DNA of 64,000 bases from Alkalicella caledoniensis (GTDB lineage: Bacteria; Bacillota; Proteinivoracia; Proteinivoracales; Proteinivoracaceae), in assembly GCF_014467015.1 (NCBI RefSeq), contig NZ_CP058559.1, positions 2,170,001 to 2,234,000 of the forward strand. Reading direction: 5' to 3'. The translations under genes and the position numbers were made by a program. The notes below the pieces were generated by a model. That model did not search any database, was not told where the DNA came from, and was given only the letters and a program-made list of their open reading frames with translations. Shown piece by piece: positions 11,280-45,588 of this stretch. How positions within the stretch are numbered: the first letter of the stretch is position 1; every line of letters begins with the position of its first letter.

Positions 11280-12656
11280 ATGGGTGAGAAAATAAATCGT
11301 AGGGAAATACCCAGTGTGACAAAACTAGTTGGGCACAGGGTGGGTAAGGAATTAATACAAGAATTTGGCCGACAAGAATTTTTGTTGGAGTGCCGTAAAA
11401 CCCTAGAGTCTATTAGAAATAACTCGGAGGATTATTGGGGTGTTTTAATTCCCGAAAATATTTTAGAAAAAATAAAACGAAATCTTAACCGTAAATCCAC
11501 AAAGAAACTAAAGCCTGTTATCAACTGTACAGGAACTATACTACATACAAACCTCGGCAGGGCACCTTTATCAATGGAAGTTGGTGAGGTCTTAAAGAAC
11601 ATAAGTGTAGGGTATAGTAACCTAGAATTTGACTTAGAGACAGGTCAAAGGGGTACTAGGACAGCAGGCATAGAGGAGCAACTGAACACCCTACTTGGAG
11701 TGGAAGACTGTGCCATTGTAAATAACAATGCAGCTGCAGTACTACTGGTTCTTATGACAATGGCTAAGGGAAAAGAAGTTATTATATCTAGGGGACAGCT
11801 AGTGGAAATTGGTGGATCCTTCAGAATACCTGAGATTATGGAACAAAGCGGAAGTATCCTAAGGGAAGTGGGTGCAACCAATAAAGTCCATTTGAAAGAT
11901 TATGAAAATGCTATTACAGAAAACACCTGTGCAATCATGAGGGTCCATCCAAGTAACTATAGAGTTACGGGGTTCACCAAGGAGGTTAGCTTGGCAGAAT
12001 TAAGGGAGCTATCTATAAAATACAAGATTCCTCTAATTGACGATTTAGGTAGCGGTACTATTGTAGAGTTAGACAAATGGGGAGTTTATGATGAGCCAAC
12101 AGTGAATCAATCTGTAAAGATTGGTGGAGATATAGTAACCTTTAGTGGTGATAAACTCCTAGGTGGCCCACAATGTGGAATTATAGTTGGCAAAAGAGAG
12201 TACATCCAAAAAATAAAAAAGCATCCACTTATGAGAGCCTTAAGGTGCGATAAACTTGTATTAACTGCTCTGCAATACACCTTAGAGATGTATAAACAAG
12301 ATAGGTTTACAAAAATACCCCTATATAAGTTCTTAGAGCGTAATACAGTAGAGCTACATAGATTGGCTAAAGACATAACCAAGGAGATTCCTCAAGGAAC
12401 CTATGAGATACAAGAAGATTATGCATATGTTGGAGGAGGGGCACTGCCCACCCAAGAAATACCCACAGTTATCATAAAGTTTAAAGGTGACTATTCTGCA
12501 AAGAAGCTATCCCAAGCCTTTAGAGAACAAGAAAAACCAATAATAGGTCGAATAAACCAAGATCAATTTATTTTAGATTTGAAAGCTGTTTTTGAAGAAG
12601 ATGTCCCTTATATCCAAAGGATAACTACAAAAATCTGGGGTGATATAAATGGTTAA
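11280..12656 (+). CDS. selA: L-seryl-tRNA(Sec) selenium transferase SelA
   Basis: 458 residues from ATG 11280 (TAGGAGGGA upstream). Conserved SelA segments are INCTGTILHTNLGRAPLS near residue 80, the NNNAAAVLL glycine-free turn, and SGDKLLGGPQCG, whose lysine binds pyridoxal phosphate. SelA is a cytoplasmic PLP enzyme that converts Ser-tRNA(Sec) to Sec-tRNA(Sec) with selenophosphate from SelD. It overlaps selB by 8 bases and opens the cluster selA-selB-lysR-selD-tRNA-Sec. Full length for the family. Confidence 0.97.
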   Translation: MGEKINRREIPSVTKLVGHRVGKELIQEFGRQEFLLECRKTLESIRNNSEDYWGVLIPENILEKIKRNLNRKSTKKLKPVINCTGTILHTNLGRAPLSMEVGEVLKNISVGYSNLEFDLETGQRGTRTAGIEEQLNTLLGVEDCAIVNNNAAAVLLVLMTMAKGKEVIISRGQLVEIGGSFRIPEIMEQSGSILREVGATNKVHLKDYENAITENTCAIMRVHPSNYRVTGFTKEVSLAELRELSIKYKIPLIDDLGSGTIVELDKWGVYDEPTVNQSVKIGGDIVTFSGDKLLGGPQCGIIVGKREYIQKIKKHPLMRALRCDKLVLTALQYTLEMYKQDRFTKIPLYKFLERNTVELHRLAKDITKEIPQGTYEIQEDYAYVGGGALPTQEIPTVIIKFKGDYSAKKLSQAFREQEKPIIGRINQDQFILDLKAVFEEDVPYIQRITTKIWGDING

Positions 12657-14556
12657 TATCATTATTGGCACTTCAGGACATGTGGATCACGGAAAAACAA
12701 GTTTGATTAAAGCACTTACGGGAGTGGATACAGACAAGCTTAAAGAGGAAAAAGAGCGGGGTATAACCATCCAGCTAGGGTTTACATATTTCCAATTAAA
12801 TGAAGAAACAAGAGCAGGTATAGTAGATGTGCCAGGTCATGAAAAATTCGTCCGCAATATGCTTGCGGGGGTTGGCGGTATGGACCTTGTACTGATGGTG
12901 GTTGCTGCCGATGAAGGAGTAATGCCTCAGACAAAAGAACATTTGAATATACTTCAACTACTTAATGTAAAAAAAGGTATTGTTGTGGTAACTAAAAAAG
13001 ACATAGTTGATGATGAATTGCTGGAATTAGTCGTTGAGGATATAAAAGATGCCATAAAGGGTACATTTTTAGAAAAGTCCCCTTTTATTCCTGTATCTTC
13101 AGTCACCAATGAAGGGATTGAAGAACTAAAAGCTGAGATTAACAAATATATCAGTAATGCCCAAATCCAATCAAAATCAGCTAAAGACTTTTTTAGATTA
13201 CCCATAGATAGGGTGTTTAGTCTGAAAGGTATTGGCACGGTTGTTACAGGCACCTTGAAAGATGGGACCATATCTGTAGGAGATACCTGTGTAGTATATC
13301 CTGGTGAGAGACAGGTAAGAGTAAGACAAATCCAAGTTCATGGTGAACAGGTTGACACAGCTTTTCCTGGACAAAGGTCTGCCGTTAACTTAACGGGAAT
13401 TGAAAAGGAAGAGTTGTCCATGGGAGATCTTCTGACAACATTTGCCTACTTAAAGCCACAGAACAAAGTGAACTGTATCTTGAGAATTTTGGACCATGCA
13501 CCGGAATTAGATAGCGGAACTATAGTTAGGTTTCACTGGGGCACAGAAGAAACCTACGGAAGAGCTGTACTCCTTGATAGGGATACATTGCTACCTGGCG
13601 AAAGTTGTTATTGTCAGTTGAGACTAGAAAAAGAAGTTGTTGTTGCTAGAGGAGATAGTTTTGTTATTCGATCAATGTCACCTGTTGATACAATAGGTGG
13701 GGGTACGGTTTTTAATAGTACTAGTAAAAGGATCCCTAGGTATAATATGCGAGTTATAAAAAACATGGAGATAAACGAAATAGGTGAGACACAAGAGATA
13801 ATTTTAGAAGGAATCAAGCAATATGGTATAAGGGGAATAACCTTTGGGGAGTTAGCTCAAGATCTGCAAATCAACCGTAGGGAGATAGAAGAGGTTATTC
13901 CTAAACTAAAAATAGAAGACAAAATAGTGGATATAAAAGACGATAATATTGTTCTTATGGAAAAATCCCACTACAACAACTTGACTTCTAAAATACTAGC
14001 TATCCTTTCAGAATATCACGTAAAATATCCCCTAAGAATAGGAATGGACAAAGAAGAGCTTCGAAGTAAGCTCGGAAGTAAATATTCAGTAAAGCTTATG
14101 GTATCTATATTAAAGAAAATGCAATTAGAGAATCTAGTTGAGATGGAAGGACTTTATGTAAGTTTAAAGGGATTTCAAATTTCACTATCTGGCAAGGAAC
14201 TGGCGCTTGTAAACCAAGCTCTAAGCCTACTAAAGGAGAGTCAGTTCAAACCACCTAATAGGGAAGATATTAACATACCTGTTAACCTATTGGAGTATCT
14301 AGTGAGAAAAGGAGATGTGTTAATTATTGGCGACATACCTTTCCATAAGGATGTAGTTAACGAAGGGATTAGTGAGGTAATAGCATATCTAAAAGAAAAT
14401 CCCCAAGGTATGGAGTTATCGCAAATTAAAGACCTATTGGGTACAAGCAGAAAATATATTGTACCCATATTAGAATACTACGATGGCTTGGGTATAACAA
14501 AACGCAGTGGCGATGTTAGGATATTAGGAGTTAAGGGGAGGGAATTATCAAAATGA
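12649..14556 (+). CDS. selB: Selenocysteine-specific elongation factor SelB
   Basis: 635 residues. The N-terminal EF-Tu-like GTPase shows G1 GHVDHGKTS, the DVPGHEKFVRNM segment and TKKD, followed by beta-barrel domains 2 and 3 and, from about residue 370, winged-helix repeats that in the family bind the SECIS hairpin. It delivers Sec-tRNA(Sec) to the ribosome at UGA codons, here needed for grdA, grdB and selD. The start overlaps the selA end and its stop overlaps the lysR start (ATGA-type), indicating translational coupling. Confidence 0.97.
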   Translation: MVNIIIGTSGHVDHGKTSLIKALTGVDTDKLKEEKERGITIQLGFTYFQLNEETRAGIVDVPGHEKFVRNMLAGVGGMDLVLMVVAADEGVMPQTKEHLNILQLLNVKKGIVVVTKKDIVDDELLELVVEDIKDAIKGTFLEKSPFIPVSSVTNEGIEELKAEINKYISNAQIQSKSAKDFFRLPIDRVFSLKGIGTVVTGTLKDGTISVGDTCVVYPGERQVRVRQIQVHGEQVDTAFPGQRSAVNLTGIEKEELSMGDLLTTFAYLKPQNKVNCILRILDHAPELDSGTIVRFHWGTEETYGRAVLLDRDTLLPGESCYCQLRLEKEVVVARGDSFVIRSMSPVDTIGGGTVFNSTSKRIPRYNMRVIKNMEINEIGETQEIILEGIKQYGIRGITFGELAQDLQINRREIEEVIPKLKIEDKIVDIKDDNIVLMEKSHYNNLTSKILAILSEYHVKYPLRIGMDKEELRSKLGSKYSVKLMVSILKKMQLENLVEMEGLYVSLKGFQISLSGKELALVNQALSLLKESQFKPPNREDINIPVNLLEYLVRKGDVLIIGDIPFHKDVVNEGISEVIAYLKENPQGMELSQIKDLLGTSRKYIVPILEYYDGLGITKRSGDVRILGVKGRELSK

Positions 14557-15449
14557 ACTTAAACCTCTTAAACACATTTATAACTATAGTTGAAGAAGGT
14601 AACTTCTCAAAGGCCGCAGCTAAGTTGCATTTATCTCAGCCAGCAGTTAGCATGCAGATGCAAACCCTTTCAACAGAACTAGGGATGAACCTATTTCTTA
14701 GGGTAGGCAAGAAAGTACAACTGACTGAAGGGGGTAACCTACTATATAATCAAGGGAAGTTGATTCTAAACAACTGGAGCGATGTACTGGCTCAACTTGA
14801 TGCCTATAAGACACATATATCTGGTAAACTTAGAATTGGTGCAAGTACCATCCCTGGCCAATATTTTTTACCTAAGACCTTAAAGTCCTATAAAGAAAAC
14901 TACCCCAATACGGATTTGTCAATAATCATCAAAGATTCCCAAGAGATAATACAAGAACTTACAGAAGGTAGCTTAGATATTGCCTTTATAGGTAAAAGAA
15001 TAAATAAATCTGGTATTAGTTGTTGTAGGTGGTTACTGGATAAACTGGTTTTGATAAAAGCTAAGGACTTAGAAGTGTCTGTGGAACCCAATTCTAAAAA
15101 AGACTTTCTAAAAATCCCTTTTGTTGTACGAAAAGATGGTTCTGGAACTAGAAAATCAATGGAGGAAAGACTTAAAAATTTGGGAATAAAGATGGAGGAT
15201 ATGAACATCGTTTTAGAATTAGAAAGCACTGAGAACATCATAGCAGCTGTGGAAACTGGTATGGGAGTTTCCCTGGTTTCCGAAGTGGCCGCCCAAAGGG
15301 GTGTAAAACTAGGGACTTTGGACATCATTAGCTCTTCATTAGAAATAGAAAGAGAAATATACTATGCCTTTAGGCATGACCAATTAAAGAGTAATACTTT
15401 AGAGAGTTTTCTAGGTTACCTAGGAAATGGAGGAGGTGAAGCAGGGTGA
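14553..15449 (+). CDS. LysR-family regulator of the selenium cluster
   Basis: 298 residues with an N-terminal winged helix (FSKAAAKLHLSQPAVSMQMQ, residues 18-37) and a C-terminal periplasmic-binding-like effector domain (from about residue 90, KLRIGASTIPGQYFLP). It overlaps selB by 4 bases and its TGA is overlapped by the GTG start of selD, so it is embedded in the sel operon. NCBI has a family for selenium-metabolism-associated LysR regulators; position and sequence fit, though the effector and target sites are unknown. It probably tunes sel genes to selenium supply (inference). Confidence 0.85.
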   Translation: MNLNLLNTFITIVEEGNFSKAAAKLHLSQPAVSMQMQTLSTELGMNLFLRVGKKVQLTEGGNLLYNQGKLILNNWSDVLAQLDAYKTHISGKLRIGASTIPGQYFLPKTLKSYKENYPNTDLSIIIKDSQEIIQELTEGSLDIAFIGKRINKSGISCCRWLLDKLVLIKAKDLEVSVEPNSKKDFLKIPFVVRKDGSGTRKSMEERLKNLGIKMEDMNIVLELESTENIIAAVETGMGVSLVSEVAAQRGVKLGTLDIISSSLEIEREIYYAFRHDQLKSNTLESFLGYLGNGGGEAG

Positions 15450-16477
15450 AGATTAAATTAACAAGTTTTAGTACAGCAGCTGGTTGAGGCGCTAAAATAG
15501 GTCCGGGTGACCTCCAAGAAATTTTAGAGGATATTAAAACACCAAGGAATGGGGGACTTTTACTAGGATATGAAAAAGGGGATGATGGAGCTGTTTTCAC
15601 CGTTCCAAGGGGTAAGGCCGTTGTGCAAACCTTAGATTTTTTTACTCCTATGGTGGATGATCCTTATATATTTGGTCAAATAACCGCAGCAAACGCATTA
15701 AGTGATATATACGCCATGGGGGGAGACCCTGTTTATGCACTAAACATAGTTGCTTTTCCTATCTGCACATTGCCAAAAGAAGTTCTTAAAAATATACTGT
15801 TAGGGTCTGCAGACAAACTTACAGAAGCAGGAGTAACAGTTATTGGAGGGCATAGCATAGATGATCCCCAGCCTAAATATGGATTAAGTGTATCGGGTTT
15901 TATAAATCCACACTCCATATGGCAAAACGATAGATGCGCTGAAGATCAAGATATAATCATAACTAAGCCTCTCGGGTCTGGAATAATAACCACTGCAATA
16001 AAAGGAGATATGGCAGAAGAATCTGCTATTCAAAGGGTAGTGGAAACAATGACTACCCTAAATAAAGGGGCAAAGGATATAATCAAAGAATTTAACATAA
16101 CATGTTGTACGGACATAACAGGCTTTGGCTTAGTTGGTCACACTTTAGAAATAGCAAAAGCATCGAATTTGAACATAGTATATGACCACAATCTAATCCC
16201 ATTTATTGAAGAGTCAAAAGAGTATGCTTCAATGGGGCTGATTCCAGCAGGGGCATATAGGAATAGGGAATATTTCAAAAAAGCAACTAAAATAAGCGAA
16301 ATAGTTCCTCAATATTTAGATGACATACTACATGACCCTCAAACATCTGGAGGGCTATTGTTTAGCTGTAATCCTTCAGAAACAGAAGAAATACTTCGCA
16401 AATTAAATGAAGCTAATATACCTGGCACCAAAATAGGTAGTACAGAAAAAGGCACAGGCAATTTGCTGGTTTTTTAA
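15446..16477 (+). CDS. selD: Selenide, water dikinase SelD, itself a selenoprotein
   Basis: GTG 15446 overlaps the lysR stop. The frame continues through TGA at 15485-15487 (codon 14) as selenocysteine in AAGUGAKIGPGD, the position of the catalytic Cys/Sec of SelD, giving 343 residues. GDDGAV and GGHSIDDPQPKYGL are ATP/phosphate-binding segments. SelD makes selenophosphate from selenide and ATP. A gene finder will start it too late, at 15623. The use of Sec in the enzyme that supplies selenium makes the cluster self-dependent. Confidence 0.95.
15485..15513 (+). promoter_or_regulatory. Candidate SECIS of selD
   Basis: UGA at 15485-15487 is followed by stem AGGTC (15499-15503), loop CGGGT, GACCT (15509-15513). 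Distance and G-containing loop are typical of bacterial SECIS hairpins. Confidence 0.6.
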
Positions 16478-16551: not shown

Positions 16552-16648
16552 GGGAATGGATGAGTTCTGGTGTGCTCTCTGGACTTCAAATCCAGTAGTG
16601 GGTATGAACAATATCCATGGTGGGTTCGATTCCCATGCATTCCCGCCA
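16552..16648 (+). tRNA. selC: tRNA-Sec (anticodon TCA)
   Basis: 97 bases ending in encoded CCA. Acceptor GGGAATG pairs with CATTCCC; the eighth position would be G-G, a mismatch in the long Sec acceptor stem. The anticodon arm CTGGA-CTTCAAA-TCCAG places TCA at 16586-16588. There is a long variable arm TGGGTAT/ATATCCA, and a T arm GTGGG-TTCGATT-CCCAT. The UGA anticodon partner, the extra arm and the location just after selD identify it as tRNA-Sec. It has its own promoter. Confidence 0.95.
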
Positions 16649-16731: not shown

Positions 16732-17517
16732 ATGTCTAAAAAAAATCTAATAATTACTCAGTATGTTAACAATAACCCTAATGAGGTTCAAGATGTTGTA
16801 ATAGAAGAAGTACCTCTTACAATTTTTCTAAATGGTGAACAGTTTATTACATTATTATCAACACCTTTTCATCAAAAAGAACTGGCTATAGGCTTTATAT
16901 TTTCAGAAGGCTTGATAGCAGGGACTGATGACATAAAGGAAATAGAAGTTCAAAATGAGCAAAATCTAGTTTATATTACCTTAACTAATAAAAGTCAGTT
17001 GACTAAAAAGCTATATGGTAAAAGGACTATAACTTCTGGTTGTGGTAAAGGTTCCATTTTTTACAATATTTTGGATTCACTACATACCACTAAGATAATC
17101 AATAAAGATACTTTTGAAGTTGAAAACATAGCCGCCTTAATGTCTGAGATGCAAAACAGCTCTACTCTTTTTAAAGAAACTGGAGGTGTTCATTCAGCAA
17201 GTTTGGCAGATAATAATAAAATATACTATACCTATGAAGATATAGGCAGACATAACGCAGTTGATAAAGTACTAGGGCGTGCCTTATTAGATGGTGTGAA
17301 AATAGAAGATAAAATGCTTATTACCAGTGGACGTTTGTCCTCTGAGATAGTACTAAAGGTTTTAAAGGCTAAGATGCCAATTTTAGTATCTAGATCAGCT
17401 CCAAGCTCATTGGCAGTTGAGCTAGCTAGAAAAAATGGTCTTACACTGTGTGGGTTTGTCAGAGGGAGAAAAATCAACTGCTACTCACACCCAGAAAGAC
17501 TAACAAAAGGGGGATAA
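16732..17517 (+). CDS. fdhD: Formate dehydrogenase accessory sulfurtransferase FdhD
   Basis: 261 residues from ATG 16732 (GGGAGGAC upstream). Family features are the N-terminal VPLTIFLNG, FHQKELAIGFIFSEG, and the TSGCGKGS loop carrying the catalytic cysteine, then DIGRHNAVDKV and VSRSAPSSLAVELA. FdhD transfers sulfur to the bis-MGD molybdenum/tungsten cofactor before insertion into formate dehydrogenase. E. coli FdhD has CxxC; here only one Cys is present in the loop, common in Firmicutes. Position between tRNA-Sec and moeA suggests a Sec-containing formate dehydrogenase in this genome, but none is in the window. Confidence 0.93.
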   Translation: MSKKNLIITQYVNNNPNEVQDVVIEEVPLTIFLNGEQFITLLSTPFHQKELAIGFIFSEGLIAGTDDIKEIEVQNEQNLVYITLTNKSQLTKKLYGKRTITSGCGKGSIFYNILDSLHTTKIINKDTFEVENIAALMSEMQNSSTLFKETGGVHSASLADNNKIYYTYEDIGRHNAVDKVLGRALLDGVKIEDKMLITSGRLSSEIVLKVLKAKMPILVSRSAPSSLAVELARKNGLTLCGFVRGRKINCYSHPERLTKGG

Positions 17518-17520
17518 AAA

Positions 17521-17688
17521 ATGATTCGCAACATAGTTTCTTTTATCTTGTTAGTGGGCACGGGAGGATTACTGTTAACTGAGACACTTTTTAGGTTAGA
17601 CAATCCTGCTTTATCAGTCCCCATAGGTATATCGGGAATATTTTTTATTTCGGGAATCTATTATCATATAAGAGGGTTAAAAGGGTAA
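17521..17688 (+). CDS. Small two-helix membrane protein, unknown
   Basis: 55 residues from ATG 17521, three bases after the fdhD stop, ending at TAA 17686-17688. Two hydrophobic segments (IVSFILLVGTGGLLL and VPIGISGIFFISGIYY) and a basic C-terminal tail (HIRGLKG). I do not recognise a family. Its spacing shows it is co-transcribed with fdhD and the two following membrane proteins. It is short enough to be missed by annotation. Confidence 0.65.
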   Translation: MIRNIVSFILLVGTGGLLLTETLFRLDNPALSVPIGISGIFFISGIYYHIRGLKG

Positions 17689-17710
17689 TAAATAGTATGG
17701 GGGTGGTAGT

Positions 17711-18064
17711 ATGATGAAAAATAAAAATCTAAGACTAATTTTAACGGCTGTTTTAGGAACAGTGCTCACATATTTTTTAAGTGTAACATTAGAATTAGGG
17801 CCCATGGTTGCATCGGGCTTAGTAGGCCTTTTGGCATCACTTTTTTTACCAACGGACCTAGCTATAGTTGCATATACCGCAGCCTTTGCTGGAATGTCCG
17901 CAGGTTTTGTATTATTAAACTATTACATGGTATCCCTAACGGGTCTGTTAGTAGGGGTTATCTTTATAATCACTCAGCCAATTTATCAAGGTTTTGGTGG
18001 TAAGCTTGGAACTATTGCAGCCTGCTCGGTCATATTAACTGTTATTATTTCTTCTGTTTTATAA
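17711..18064 (+). CDS. Small integral membrane protein, first of a paralogous pair
   Basis: 117 residues; start ATG 17711 (or 17714) after GGGGGTGG. About four membrane helices. It shares with the next protein the pattern LTYxxxxxLxxGPxxxSxxVxL near the N terminus and the end motif GGKLGTIAA, so the two look like diverged copies. I know no function. The location between fdhD and moeA and the four-helix, glycine-rich build would suit a small transporter subunit or membrane anchor; this is inference only. Confidence 0.7.
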   Translation: MMKNKNLRLILTAVLGTVLTYFLSVTLELGPMVASGLVGLLASLFLPTDLAIVAYTAAFAGMSAGFVLLNYYMVSLTGLLVGVIFIITQPIYQGFGGKLGTIAACSVILTVIISSVL

Positions 18065-18078
18065 AGGGGGGAAGGGAA

Positions 18079-18489
18079 ATGGAACTTTTGTTGATTATTA
18101 CTGTGAGTGTTTTAGCTGGTCTGTTGACATATTATATTAATCATTATTTGGGTAAAGGGCCTGTTTTCGGTTCAGCCATTGTAGTTTTAACAGTAGGACT
18201 TATACTACCTAAAGTGTTCTCAGATGGCTATACCTTAGCTCTTGTGGCAACATGTGCATCCTATGCTGGTATGTCTGCTAAAAATAGGATTACTAATCCC
18301 TTAGAGGTATGTATAAGCTGTGTTTTAGTAGCTCTGATTTTTGTGGGTTCCAGTGAAGCTCTAGTGGGATATGGAGGAAGATTAGGAACCATTGCGGCAA
18401 TTTCAGTAATAACTGTATGGGGAGCAAAAAGCCTTTTTCTTCAGCTTAGGGAAAACAAAAAAAATCAACTAAAAACTAAGAATAGTTAG
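18079..18489 (+). CDS. Small integral membrane protein, second of a paralogous pair
   Basis: 136 residues from ATG 18079 (GGGGGGAAGGG upstream), 14 bases after the first. Four to five hydrophobic segments; matching elements are LLTYYINHYLGKGPVFGSAIV, SYAGMSA (AGMSAG in the partner) and GGRLGTIAA. The C terminus is lysine/asparagine rich and probably cytoplasmic. No family recognised. Two half-size paralogues in tandem suggest an obligate heteromer. Confidence 0.7.
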   Translation: MELLLIITVSVLAGLLTYYINHYLGKGPVFGSAIVVLTVGLILPKVFSDGYTLALVATCASYAGMSAKNRITNPLEVCISCVLVALIFVGSSEALVGYGGRLGTIAAISVITVWGAKSLFLQLRENKKNQLKTKNS

Positions 18490-18499
18490 ACATATCTAA

Positions 18500-18528
18500 T
18501 TGAAAAAAATGTAAAAAAGTAGTATAAT
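18500..18528 (+). promoter_or_regulatory. Promoter of the moeA genes
   Basis: TTGAAA (18500-18505), 17 bases, TATAAT (18523-18528). Confidence 0.7.
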
Positions 18529-18536
18529 TTTAAAAA

Positions 18537-18560
18537 AAGGACTAACTCCAGTTAGTCCTT
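18537..18560 (+). terminator. Hairpin at the start of the moeA transcript (or terminator of the upstream operon)
   Basis: Perfect 11-bp stem AAGGACTAACT (18537-18547) / AGTTAGTCCTT (18550-18560) with only a 2-base formal gap, followed by AATTTG. It lies 8 bases 3' of the -10 box, so it would be the 5' end of the moeA mRNA; the weak T tract makes termination of the fdhD transcript possible but not certain. Confidence 0.6.
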
Positions 18561-18591: not shown

Positions 18592-19836
18592 GTGGCTTTT
18601 TTATCTGTAAAGTCTGTGGAAGAAGTTGAAAGTCTTGTGGATAGTTTTAACTTAAATCCGGATATTGAAGAAATAGATATTGTAGATTCTGTTAATCTAA
18701 CTTTGGCAGAAGATGTTTATGCGTCAATATCCTTACCACCATATAACAGATCCGCTGTAGACGGATACTGTGTTAAGTGGGAAGATGTTTCTGGAGCTAG
18801 CGAAGCATTACCCATATTCCTAAAAATAACTGAAGACGTGCAAATGGGACAGGCTCCCCTAAACGCCTTAGAGACAGACTGCTGCATGGCTGTTGCCACT
18901 GGTAGTATGTTGCCACCTGAAGCCACAAGTGTAGTCATGGTTGAGCACAGTGAAAGAATCAGTGAAGATGAGGTGGCAATCTATAATAGTGTAGCCAGTT
19001 ACGAAAATATTTTAAAGGAAGGGGAAGATGTTAAAAAAGGGGACTTGTTGATGAAAAAAGATCAGCAAATAACATCTTTTAATATAAATTTGTTAGCAGC
19101 ATTAGGTATAAATAAAATAAAGGTCTATAAAAAGATAGTGGTTGGAATCCTGTCAACAGGAGATGAACTTATTGAGTATAACACTGATAATGAGCTTAAT
19201 TTTGGAAAAATATTCAACAGCAACGGGCCTGGATTGATAGCAGCTGTCAAATCAACGGGAGCCATCCCACGCTACTATGGAATAATAGAAGATGAATTTA
19301 GCATATTAAAAGAGGCATTAGACAAAGCCGTGAAAGAATGTGACATAGTTATCCTTACAGGAGGTACATCTGTAGGAGTTAAAGATTTTGTAACAGCTGC
19401 CATTGAGAGTTTAGGTAAACCAGGTGTTTTGGTCCACGGCATAGCTATTAAACCTGGAAAACCAACTATCATTGGTAAAGTGGATGATGTCCCCATATTT
19501 GGTCTATCTGGTAACCCAGTATCTGCAATGATATGCTTTGACTTATTTGTAAATAGACTACTAACTAAAGTAAAACCAGAAACCATTGTCTGTGCAGTTA
19601 GTAGGAACATACCTTCATCTGGAGGAAGGCAGGATTATATACCAGTAACCCTTACCAAGGTTCAGGATAAAATAATTGCAAGTCCTATCTTTGCAAAATC
19701 TAATTCCATAGGCTCCTTGACTAAAATGGACGGGTTATTAGTTATACCAAAGGATAGTGAGGGTTTAGAAGAAGGAAATCATGGAAAAGTCATTTTATAT
19801 AAAGGTAAGGGGTGGGAAGATGATTTACTTAAGTAA
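18592..19836 (+). CDS. moeA: Molybdopterin molybdenumtransferase MoeA
   Basis: 414 residues from GTG 18592, 7 bases after AAGGAGGGA. MoeA order of motifs is present: LPPYNRSAVDGYCV near residue 45, GDxxxxx in the central domain, LSTGDEL, ILTGGTSVGVKD and KPGKPTIIG, then the C-terminal beta-barrel. MoeA inserts molybdate (or tungstate) into adenylylated molybdopterin. It overlaps the next gene, a second MoeA, by 17 bases. Two MoeA proteins in one operon often mean separate Mo and W insertion (family knowledge; which does which cannot be seen). Confidence 0.93.
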   Translation: MAFLSVKSVEEVESLVDSFNLNPDIEEIDIVDSVNLTLAEDVYASISLPPYNRSAVDGYCVKWEDVSGASEALPIFLKITEDVQMGQAPLNALETDCCMAVATGSMLPPEATSVVMVEHSERISEDEVAIYNSVASYENILKEGEDVKKGDLLMKKDQQITSFNINLLAALGINKIKVYKKIVVGILSTGDELIEYNTDNELNFGKIFNSNGPGLIAAVKSTGAIPRYYGIIEDEFSILKEALDKAVKECDIVILTGGTSVGVKDFVTAAIESLGKPGVLVHGIAIKPGKPTIIGKVDDVPIFGLSGNPVSAMICFDLFVNRLLTKVKPETIVCAVSRNIPSSGGRQDYIPVTLTKVQDKIIASPIFAKSNSIGSLTKMDGLLVIPKDSEGLEEGNHGKVILYKGKGWEDDLLK

Positions 19837-21718
19837 TACTTCCATAGACATGGCTTTAAAAAACTTAAAAGATTCTTTAGATAATTACCGCTTTGGTGCA
19901 AAGGAGACCATTGCTGTCGACACTGCTTTGGGTAGAGTACTTGCTGAGAATGTATTTGCCAATCGCTCCGTACCCCACTACCATAGTTCTGCCATGGATG
20001 GGTATCAGGTTAGGGCTGAAGATACAGTGGACGCAAATGTTGACAATCCGGTGTCCTTAAGCTGGAGTAAAGTGAAGTACGTAGATACAGGTGACCCCAT
20101 ACTACCTGAATATGACTCGGTAATAAAAATAGAAGATATACATAAAAAAGAAGAGGGAATTGAGATCTTGTCTGCAGCTACTAAATGGCAGCACATACGC
20201 CCAATTGGTGAAGATGTAACAGCCCATGATTTATTGTTAACCATTGGAAGGAAGCTAAAACCCATGGATATAGCTGCCCTTATCGCCAGTGGAATTAGAC
20301 ACATTGACGTTTTCAAAATACCAAAGGTGGCTATCCTACCTACAGGGGATGAAATAGTTCCCTATGATAAAGAACCTCAAGTAGGAGAAATTGTAGATAG
20401 CAATTCACACCTTTTTTATGGAATGGTGAAAGAATGGGGTGGAGAACCAGAAGTTTATCCCATTACTCCTGATAATTTTGACAAAATTAAAGAAGTGGTA
20501 AGTAAAGCTGTGGCAAATAGCGATATGGTTTTGATAAATGCAGGGTCATCTGCAGGCAGTGAAGACTTTACCTCGCAGGTTGTGGAAAATTTAGGGGAAG
20601 TAATTCATCACGGTATAGCTGTTAGGCCTGGGAAACCAACTATACTTGGGAATATAGGTGGTAAACCAGTAATAGGTGTTCCAGGGTACCCTGTCTCAGG
20701 CTACGTAGTCATGGATGTCATAGTAAAGGATGTCTTTTACCATCTAAATGGTCAAGTAACACCAAGTAGAAAGAAAATTGAAGCTAAACTTACTAAGCCT
20801 GTTGTCTCTGACTTGAAGTACCAGGAGTATGTTAGGGTAAAGGTTGGTAAAATAAATGGGCAATTCATTGTAAGCCCAATGTCTAGGGGTTCAGCCCTGA
20901 TGTCTACTGTAGTTCAAGGTGACGGATTTTTAGTAATACCCCAAAGTTCCGAGGGGTATAAAGCTGGAGAAACAGTCCAAGTGGAGGTTTTTGAAGAGAA
21001 AAATTATGATAATACATTAGTTAGCATCGGAAGCCATGATATGGCATTGGATATCCTAGCAACTTATCTAGCACCACAATTAGGGATAAGCTCTGCCCAT
21101 GTGGGGAGCCTCGGTGGTATAATGGCCCTTAAAAAAGGCGAGGCTCACTTTGCAGGAATTCATCTTTTAGACCCACAATCAGGTACTTACAACATACCAT
21201 ATATAAAAAAGTACCTAAAAGGAACAAAGATAGTGCTTATGAACTTGGTAAAAAGAACCCAAGGGCTTATGGTTCAAAAGGGTAATCCTAAAAATATAAA
21301 AGCTATTGGTGACTTACCTGGTTTGTCCTTGGCAAATAGGCAAAAAGGGGCAGGAACAAGGGTGCTCTTAGACTATCTATTAGAACAAGCAGGTGTTTCA
21401 CCTGCTTCCATCCAAGGCTATAACAAAGAATATTTCACACATCTTGCAGTAGCTGCGGAAGTGAAAAGCAAAAGGGCAGATGCAGGCGTGGGCATTTATG
21501 CAGCAGCAAAAGCAATGGATTTAGATTTCATTCCCCTTTACGAAGAAAACTATGACTTACTTTTAAGTGAAGAATTTTACTTATCACCTAAATTTAAAGA
21601 ATTACAGAATGTACTTACAAAAACTGATTTTAAGACGGAAGTTGAGGCATTAGGTGGTTATAATTTAGAAGAATGTGGGAATATTATATCCCTAGAGGAA
21701 AATAATTCTAAAATATAA
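19820..21718 (+). CDS. MoeA fused to a periplasmic-binding-protein-like domain
   Basis: Start ATG 19820 (GGGGTGGGAAG upstream) fits better than the in-frame codon at 19781 inside moeA. 632 residues. Residues 1 to about 400 form a MoeA unit (VPHYHSSAMDGYQV, LPTGDEI, NAGSSAGSEDF, VRPGKPTILG). From about residue 410 (IGSHDMALDIL) a PBP-like domain of the molybdate-sensor type follows, with GSLGGIMAL, HFAGIHLLDPQSG and ANRQKGAGTR. Such fusions are known in Clostridia and archaea and may sense or hold the oxyanion during insertion. Role inferred. Confidence 0.88.
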   Translation: MIYLSNTSIDMALKNLKDSLDNYRFGAKETIAVDTALGRVLAENVFANRSVPHYHSSAMDGYQVRAEDTVDANVDNPVSLSWSKVKYVDTGDPILPEYDSVIKIEDIHKKEEGIEILSAATKWQHIRPIGEDVTAHDLLLTIGRKLKPMDIAALIASGIRHIDVFKIPKVAILPTGDEIVPYDKEPQVGEIVDSNSHLFYGMVKEWGGEPEVYPITPDNFDKIKEVVSKAVANSDMVLINAGSSAGSEDFTSQVVENLGEVIHHGIAVRPGKPTILGNIGGKPVIGVPGYPVSGYVVMDVIVKDVFYHLNGQVTPSRKKIEAKLTKPVVSDLKYQEYVRVKVGKINGQFIVSPMSRGSALMSTVVQGDGFLVIPQSSEGYKAGETVQVEVFEEKNYDNTLVSIGSHDMALDILATYLAPQLGISSAHVGSLGGIMALKKGEAHFAGIHLLDPQSGTYNIPYIKKYLKGTKIVLMNLVKRTQGLMVQKGNPKNIKAIGDLPGLSLANRQKGAGTRVLLDYLLEQAGVSPASIQGYNKEYFTHLAVAAEVKSKRADAGVGIYAAAKAMDLDFIPLYEENYDLLLSEEFYLSPKFKELQNVLTKTDFKTEVEALGGYNLEECGNIISLEENNSKI

Positions 21719-45434: not shown

Positions 45435-45464
45435 AAACATGTAGTCATTAAAAACCGAATACAA

Positions 45465-45533
45465 ACTCGTATAAATGTGGTGATATGGTCCACAAGTCTC
45501 TACCGGTCTGCCGTAAATTGACCGACTACGGGT
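45465..45533 (+). ncRNA. Purine riboswitch aptamer, guanine class
   Basis: P1 ACTCGTA (45465-45471) / TACGGGT (45527-45533). P2 loop carries the conserved TGATATGG, J2/3 is GTCTCTACC, P3 CGGTC/GACCG. The specificity position in J3/1 is C (45526), as in the B. subtilis xpt guanine aptamer, not the U of adenine aptamers. It should bind guanine/hypoxanthine and shut off the downstream permease. Confidence 0.95.
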
Positions 45534-45588
45534 GTTGAAGACAACTTTTTTAGTTGCTTTAGCTAAGCAAATGCTTACTTGGATGTAT

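Follow-up and report, generated by a model that had tools for sequence, protein, structure and literature searches.

A three-gene membrane protein set behind fdhD in Alkalicella caledoniensis: a tentative split inverted-repeat channel for a small anion, possibly formate

In the paired Fluc/CrcB or SMR systems, which are dual-topology half-size pairs, two small paralogues of opposite orientation together make up one unit. The pores of Amt/Rh proteins contain conserved histidines. The Amt/Rh proteins and the urea transporters of the UT/SLC14 family (e.g. dvUT, 3k3g) are the described systems closest in predicted build to the proteins presented here, and a resemblance of NqrB and RnfD to transporters of urea and ammonium is described in PMC10643135 and PMC9588780. 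With regard to the proposed job, the counterpart is the FocA/FNT family of formate channels (PF01226). Formate is one of the main electron carriers between anaerobes, and the ability of an organism to exchange it is read from known formate transporter genes. In the case of 'Ca. Syntrophonatronum acetioxidans', an acetate oxidiser of soda lakes whose genome is without formate transporters, exchange of H2 and not of formate was deduced in this way (PMC6295475).

The window analysed here is a stretch of 64,000 nucleotides from the genome of A. caledoniensis (G000). Directly behind the formate dehydrogenase accessory gene fdhD it contains three small genes, denoted X, A and B (together XAB), with the following surroundings (window coordinates; the names selA, selB, selD and moeA in the window were assigned by eye):

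12649-14556, + strand: selB, context
15446-16477, + strand: selD with one in-frame TGA, context
16552-16648, + strand: tRNA-Sec, context
16732-17517, + strand: fdhD, with a PF02634 match at window 16801-17502 (G000:C1:2186801-2187502)
17521-17688, + strand: X, first gene of the set, a two-helix protein of 55 aa
17711-18064, + strand: A, 117 aa, a predicted five-helix half with an invariant GGKxGT (K98)
18079-18489, + strand: B, 136 aa, a predicted five-helix half and paralogue of A, probably of opposite orientation, basic in 20 of 20 proteins at K26 and in GG[KR]xGT (R101)
18537-18560, strand not assigned: 10-bp stem, possible end of the fdhD-X-A-B unit
18592-19836, + strand: moeA-like gene, downstream context
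19781-21718: second moeA-like gene, after the first

The gaps are 3 nt between fdhD and X, 22 nt between X and A and 14 nt between A and B, with all genes on the + strand, in agreement with an earlier note that had described a membrane set following fdhD closely. A purine-rich stretch is present ahead of each of X, A and B. The stem at 18537-18560 could mark the end of the fdhD-X-A-B unit, or may instead be part of the moeA leader, since a promoter-like site (18500-18528) stands just ahead of it; the two terminator-like sites found, versus 1.3 ± 1.2 in shuffled sequences, are a weak signal. The region 18500-18560, upstream of moeA, combines a good sigma-70-like site (11/12) with a directly following 10-bp hairpin, gives no Rfam match, and is a possible leader attenuator of moeA.

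A and B are 41% identical over 108 aa (E 3e-18), are related with 99.3% probability in a profile-to-profile comparison and share the motifs G[KR]LGTIAA and AGMSA; their description in the earlier note as half-size membrane paralogues is borne out, as is that of X as a 55-residue two-helix protein, whose counterpart in a natural X-A-B fusion is modelled as two helices. Fusions of X to A (L023, L028, L029, L031 and L055) and of all three parts into chains of 314-344 aa (L033, L034, L035, L056, L062, L107, where it occurs twice, and L108-L110) occur naturally, from which it follows that X, A and B belong together, and, of the 26 split loci examined, 25 have an X-like ORF ahead of A. There is good support for the view that the three are parts of a single split membrane protein. 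Like the Fluc/CrcB or SMR pairs, the set comprises two small paralogues of probably opposite orientation, but it differs from them in its five predicted helices per half and in its predicted fold.

Homologous A/B pairs are found in 14 of 61 genomes in a sample of relatives (that of the window included), in 26 of 398 Bacillota genomes and in 29 of 148 genomes from the order of Alkaliphilus serpentinus, one of the 29 having one half only; the set is thus not a product of chance. A scan of the genome collection with two patterns of peptide sequence yielded 26 loci, including those of Clostridium ultunense, Alkaliphilus and Anoxynatronum. A plasmid search yielded one single-chain haloarchaeal relative, a fusion in Natrinema zhouii with uninformative neighbours, while no relatives were found on viral contigs and a BFVD search gave no match.

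When the three window proteins were compared with Pfam and NCBIfam, with E values of up to 10 allowed, all matches were sub-threshold scraps, and no member tested scored above the cut-offs of either collection. Matches are equally weak and scattered for two fusions, one distant A and one distant B; for 46 A/B members and 5 fusions, which in three scans hit 2, 4 and 0 stray families, each in one or two members; and for 17 X proteins, where no family recurs in more than 3. The assignment to no known family consequently holds for the window proteins, the 46 members and the five fusions. The UT family is absent from the Pfam matches of these members and fusions, a PDB search with A-B unit profiles, at E values of up to 10, gives no sequence match, and neither UT nor Amt/Rh proteins show a sequence match to XAB. 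PF01226 is likewise absent from the matches of the window proteins, the 46 members and the five fusions, and has no match anywhere in G000, the genome of the window. No Mnh subunit family exceeds its cut-off in the set; a relation of X to MnhG (E 0.008, 16 bits versus a cut-off of 122) was dropped, as the resemblance is seen in one of 17 X proteins. No paper linking the family to formate or Mrp was recognised in the open-licence literature, where it has no name.

To describe the fold, AlphaFold2 models were used of a natural X-A-B fusion (L056) and of an A-B unit (L036) with its intergenic stop read through, the latter being 24-27% identical in alignments; a mixed A/B alignment, in which all A halves had fallen on B columns, was set aside. 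The fusion model, based on 11 aligned rows, has a mean pLDDT of 81.4, a pTM of 0.82 and helices in a 2+5+5 arrangement. The A-B model (pLDDT 76.5, pTM 0.76) shows nine helical elements, with two B helices merged. Among PDB chains realigned by VIA-align, rows 1-25 for the fusion model are all UT or Amt/Rh proteins (Z 5.1-6.1, rmsd 4.4-7.1, 162-191 aligned), followed by NqrB and RnfD at Z 3.5-4.5, amid glutamate transporters and citrate synthases with similar values of up to 4.8. In the A-B model, residues 1-246 of 263 align with the Desulfovibrio urea transporter at Z 7.2, a level also attained by partial matches to MgtE (Z 7.3 over 90 residues) and RnfA (Z 7.0 over 89 residues). Over the full length, the models match urea channels, Amt/Rh and NqrB/RnfD best, at Z 4-7, with maxima of 7.2 (UT) and 6.7 (Amt/Rh) and a UT-like alignment that spans A+B; as all Z values lie below 8, under the level that VIA-align regards as safe for helical proteins, the claim made here is for an architecture of the UT/Amt/NqrB class and not for membership of it.

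Judged from these models, a UT/Amt-like inverted architecture is likely. The predicted 5+5 inverted helix repeat extends over the whole of A+B, as in UT and Amt/Rh proteins, whereas in XAB the halves are encoded by separate genes, a hairpin (X) is added and each half has an invariant basic residue. The predicted architecture is also different from that of FocA/FNT. Foldseek gave no match with E < 0.001 for either model; its first ranks, ClC or VMAT, were rejected at TM-scores of 0.13-0.20 and an rmsd of ~20. The highest probability in the list for the second model, 0.84, belongs to RnfD from A. woodii. RnfD and NqrB are of the same fold class as predicted for XAB, and this match lends some weight to an alternative, on the whole unlikely, in which XAB would be an NqrB/RnfD-like ion-translocating or accessory module of an Mrp-type antiporter within a larger membrane complex of formate dehydrogenase (FDH) and Mrp, and not a solute channel. 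It is opposed by the comparison of profiles, in which hhalign against 14 RnfD sequences gives 2.0% and 8.6%; homology to RnfD was thus not found. In addition, DGxTxATPL, conserved in the consensus of the 14 RnfD sequences and presumably the covalent flavin site, is absent by eye from the A and B alignments.

The distribution of charges was analysed in 21 A, 20 B and 19 X proteins. Lys/Arg residues are located at the N-terminus of A, at both ends of X and, in B, which lacks them at its N-terminus, in loop 1 (20/20), loop 3 and the C-tail. This suggests an orientation N-in/C-in for X, N-in/C-out for A and N-out/C-in for B, with A and B mutually upside down, which is the orientation that the fusions require. 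A Lys/Arg at position 111, near the C-terminus, in 12 of the 21 A proteins runs counter to the orientation of A. One basic residue is invariant in each half, K98 in 21/21 A and K/R101 in 20/20 B proteins, at equivalent places in GG[KR]xGT; in an inverted pair these two would lie near opposite membrane faces, and we infer that they bind an anion. Among the columns conserved in at least 90% of the 21 A and 20 B proteins there is no Asp, Glu or His, so that, unlike Amt/Rh, XAB has no conserved histidine, and no haem, Fe-S or flavin motif was seen by eye in the set. The lack of a visible cofactor site and of a conserved acidic residue argues against an antiporter module as well.

The following arrangement is proposed. 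X, A and B would be subunits of one integral membrane protein, in which A and B, with five helices each, would be inserted upside down relative to each other to give a single 5+5 unit, pseudo-symmetric and built like the urea/Amt channels, and X would contribute a hairpin of two helices whose ends both lie in the cytosol. The two invariant Lys/Arg residues, one per half and situated in GG[KR]xGT, the turn that precedes the last helix, would stand near each membrane face and attract a small anion. Most probably this would be formate, made or used by the formate dehydrogenase of the cell, and XAB would then do the job that is done elsewhere by FocA/FNT. While the gene set, the relation of A to B, the fusions, the neighbourhoods and the counts of co-occurrence are observed and the fold and the orientation are predicted, channel activity, anion selectivity and the substrate are properties that we infer. 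What is put forward tentatively is a channel for a small anion, probably formate, that consists of a split inverted repeat.

The gene neighbourhoods were surveyed, as the earlier note had proposed, in 67 distinct loci for FDH (fdhD or the FDH catalytic half) or Mrp within 6 kb, and reveal a link to formate dehydrogenase. FDH is present in 23 loci and Mrp in 18, three having both; 20 have FDH without Mrp, 15 Mrp alone and 29 neither, 12 of these with short flanks. The FDH genes could indicate that XAB is a membrane anchor, as the earlier note had also considered, or electron-transfer partner of a soluble formate dehydrogenase, but 13 of 64 distinct XAB genomes are without FdhD (7/26 in the phylum sample, 1/16 among further genomes and 5/29 in the order sample, with 7 genomes shared by the last two), and this, with the lack of recognisable haem, Fe-S or flavin motifs, makes such a role improbable. 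The FDH adjoining XAB in C. ultunense appears, on a match by contig name, to be the cytoplasmic enzyme next to an [FeFe] hydrogenase that is described in PMC5924567.

Mrp operons are nearly as frequent neighbours of XAB as FDH. In 15 split loci the distance between mnhE and XAB is 149-379 nt, FDH, XAB and Mrp form one strand-wise cluster in L034 and L035 and are all within 9 kb in L209, and this strong link is the main fact left unexplained by a formate channel and the best support for an Mrp module; the 20 loci with FDH but no Mrp within 6 kb are at variance with such a module. In their full extent, the clusters L034:1-16001 and L035:1-15001 comprise FDH genes, a fused X-A-B, a large MnhD-type protein and Mrp E-F-B-C-D, and look like a bacterial formate dehydrogenase-Mrp operon; they also encode an ECF-S-like protein of 161 aa (PF12822, E 5e-5, below the cut-off). 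In L105:3551-6963, X-A-B is followed by genes for a CPA2-type cation/proton antiporter and a ClC-type transporter, which, on matches below the curated cut-offs in both cases, may represent a second antiporter context besides Mrp.

The location of the window set amid selenium and molybdenum-cofactor genes would agree with an importer of molybdate, tungstate or selenium oxyanions for the Sec- and Mo/W-containing formate dehydrogenase. The set is nevertheless not tied to selenium, since it often resides in Mrp operons and, in L061, L101 and L110, beside an FDH alpha gene that is one uninterrupted frame, and an oxyanion importer would not predict the inverse occurrence of XAB and FNT described below, for which it offers no reason. 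Of the earlier suggestion, a transporter formed by paired half-size proteins is plausible, but a Mo, W or Se oxyanion as its substrate is very improbable.

Split and fused genes differ in their surroundings, 34 of 51 split but 4 of 16 fused loci being linked to FDH or Mrp, which leaves 12 of the 16 fused copies with neither. Fused X-A-B copies of the Alkaliphilus order (L194-L200) are without FDH or Mrp neighbours, some genomes (G407, G408 and G419) have both a split and a fused copy, and the fused copies of this order probably make up a subfamily with a function of its own.

In the phylum sample, FNT is found in 3/26 XAB genomes versus 147/372 others and FdhD in 19/26 versus 182/372; in the order sample the corresponding values are 3/29 versus 87/119 (p 5e-10) for FNT and 24/29 versus 30/119 (p 1.6e-8) for FdhD. 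When only FdhD-positive genomes are considered, the distributions of FNT and XAB are nearly exclusive, FNT being present in 1/19 genomes with XAB versus 81/182 without it in the phylum (p 4.7e-4) and in 1/24 versus 24/30 in the order (p 9e-9). Sixteen further genomes, picked for having XAB, with no matched controls and with seven also in the order sample, contain FNT in 0/16 and FdhD in 15/16 cases. The XAB genomes that do carry FNT are six in number, G162, G244 and G342 (phylum) and G454, G487 and G540 (order). FNT lies within 10 kb of fdhD, by eye from printed coordinates, in G114, G200, G388, G492, G493 and G528.

These genome counts are phylogenetically non-independent. A tree of FdhD was used for 51 of the 54 genomes, the three omitted ones having fdhD matches that were broken or partial. 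In this tree, which has long branches and is a mere proxy for species relations, XAB changes four times, giving three independent contrasts; FNT runs opposite to XAB in 1.4 of these 3 on average and never in the same way, with a median p of 0.5. FNT exclusion was accordingly rejected as independent evidence, the raw counts looking decisive and the tree-aware test not supporting them: the exclusion between XAB and FNT is consistent but not statistically established.

Formate is the sole candidate that explains the link to FDH as well as the pattern of FNT, the latter not being predicted by an Mrp module, and is favoured on these grounds as the best single guess for the substrate, with less than even confidence. 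A channel of the same build for another small solute of this metabolism, such as bicarbonate/CO2, another short monocarboxylate or a neutral solute, is rather unlikely. Urea and ammonia are carried by this fold class, the set has MFS genes of the lactate or oxalate-formate kind nearby in G342 and G035 (that in G035 below the cut-off), and the neighbour of XAB in G238 is an NADH-dependent [FeFe] hydrogenase and not FDH, but the association with FdhD and against FNT points to formate specifically. The most far-reaching form of the formate proposal, that XAB is a second channel for this anion, unrelated to FNT and built from two antiparallel halves and a hairpin, that it replaced FocA in FDH-bearing, often alkaliphilic or syntrophic anaerobes, and that genome-based claims of no formate exchange are wrong, is conceivable but doubtful. 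If a channel class is indeed missing, such metabolic reconstructions would be altered. Likewise, a UT/Amt-like unit split into separate inverted halves, together with its natural fusions, would show how inverted-repeat transporters arise.

The FDH alpha gene of A. caledoniensis itself, with one in-frame TGA, is located far from XAB, at C1:394000-396000, and outside the window, in G000:C1:388752-396000, rnfD (PF03116) lies ~4-5 kb from it. Within the window, a SECIS_4 element at 1945-1982 points to a further selenoprotein gene, and a purine riboswitch aptamer is present at 45447-45548.
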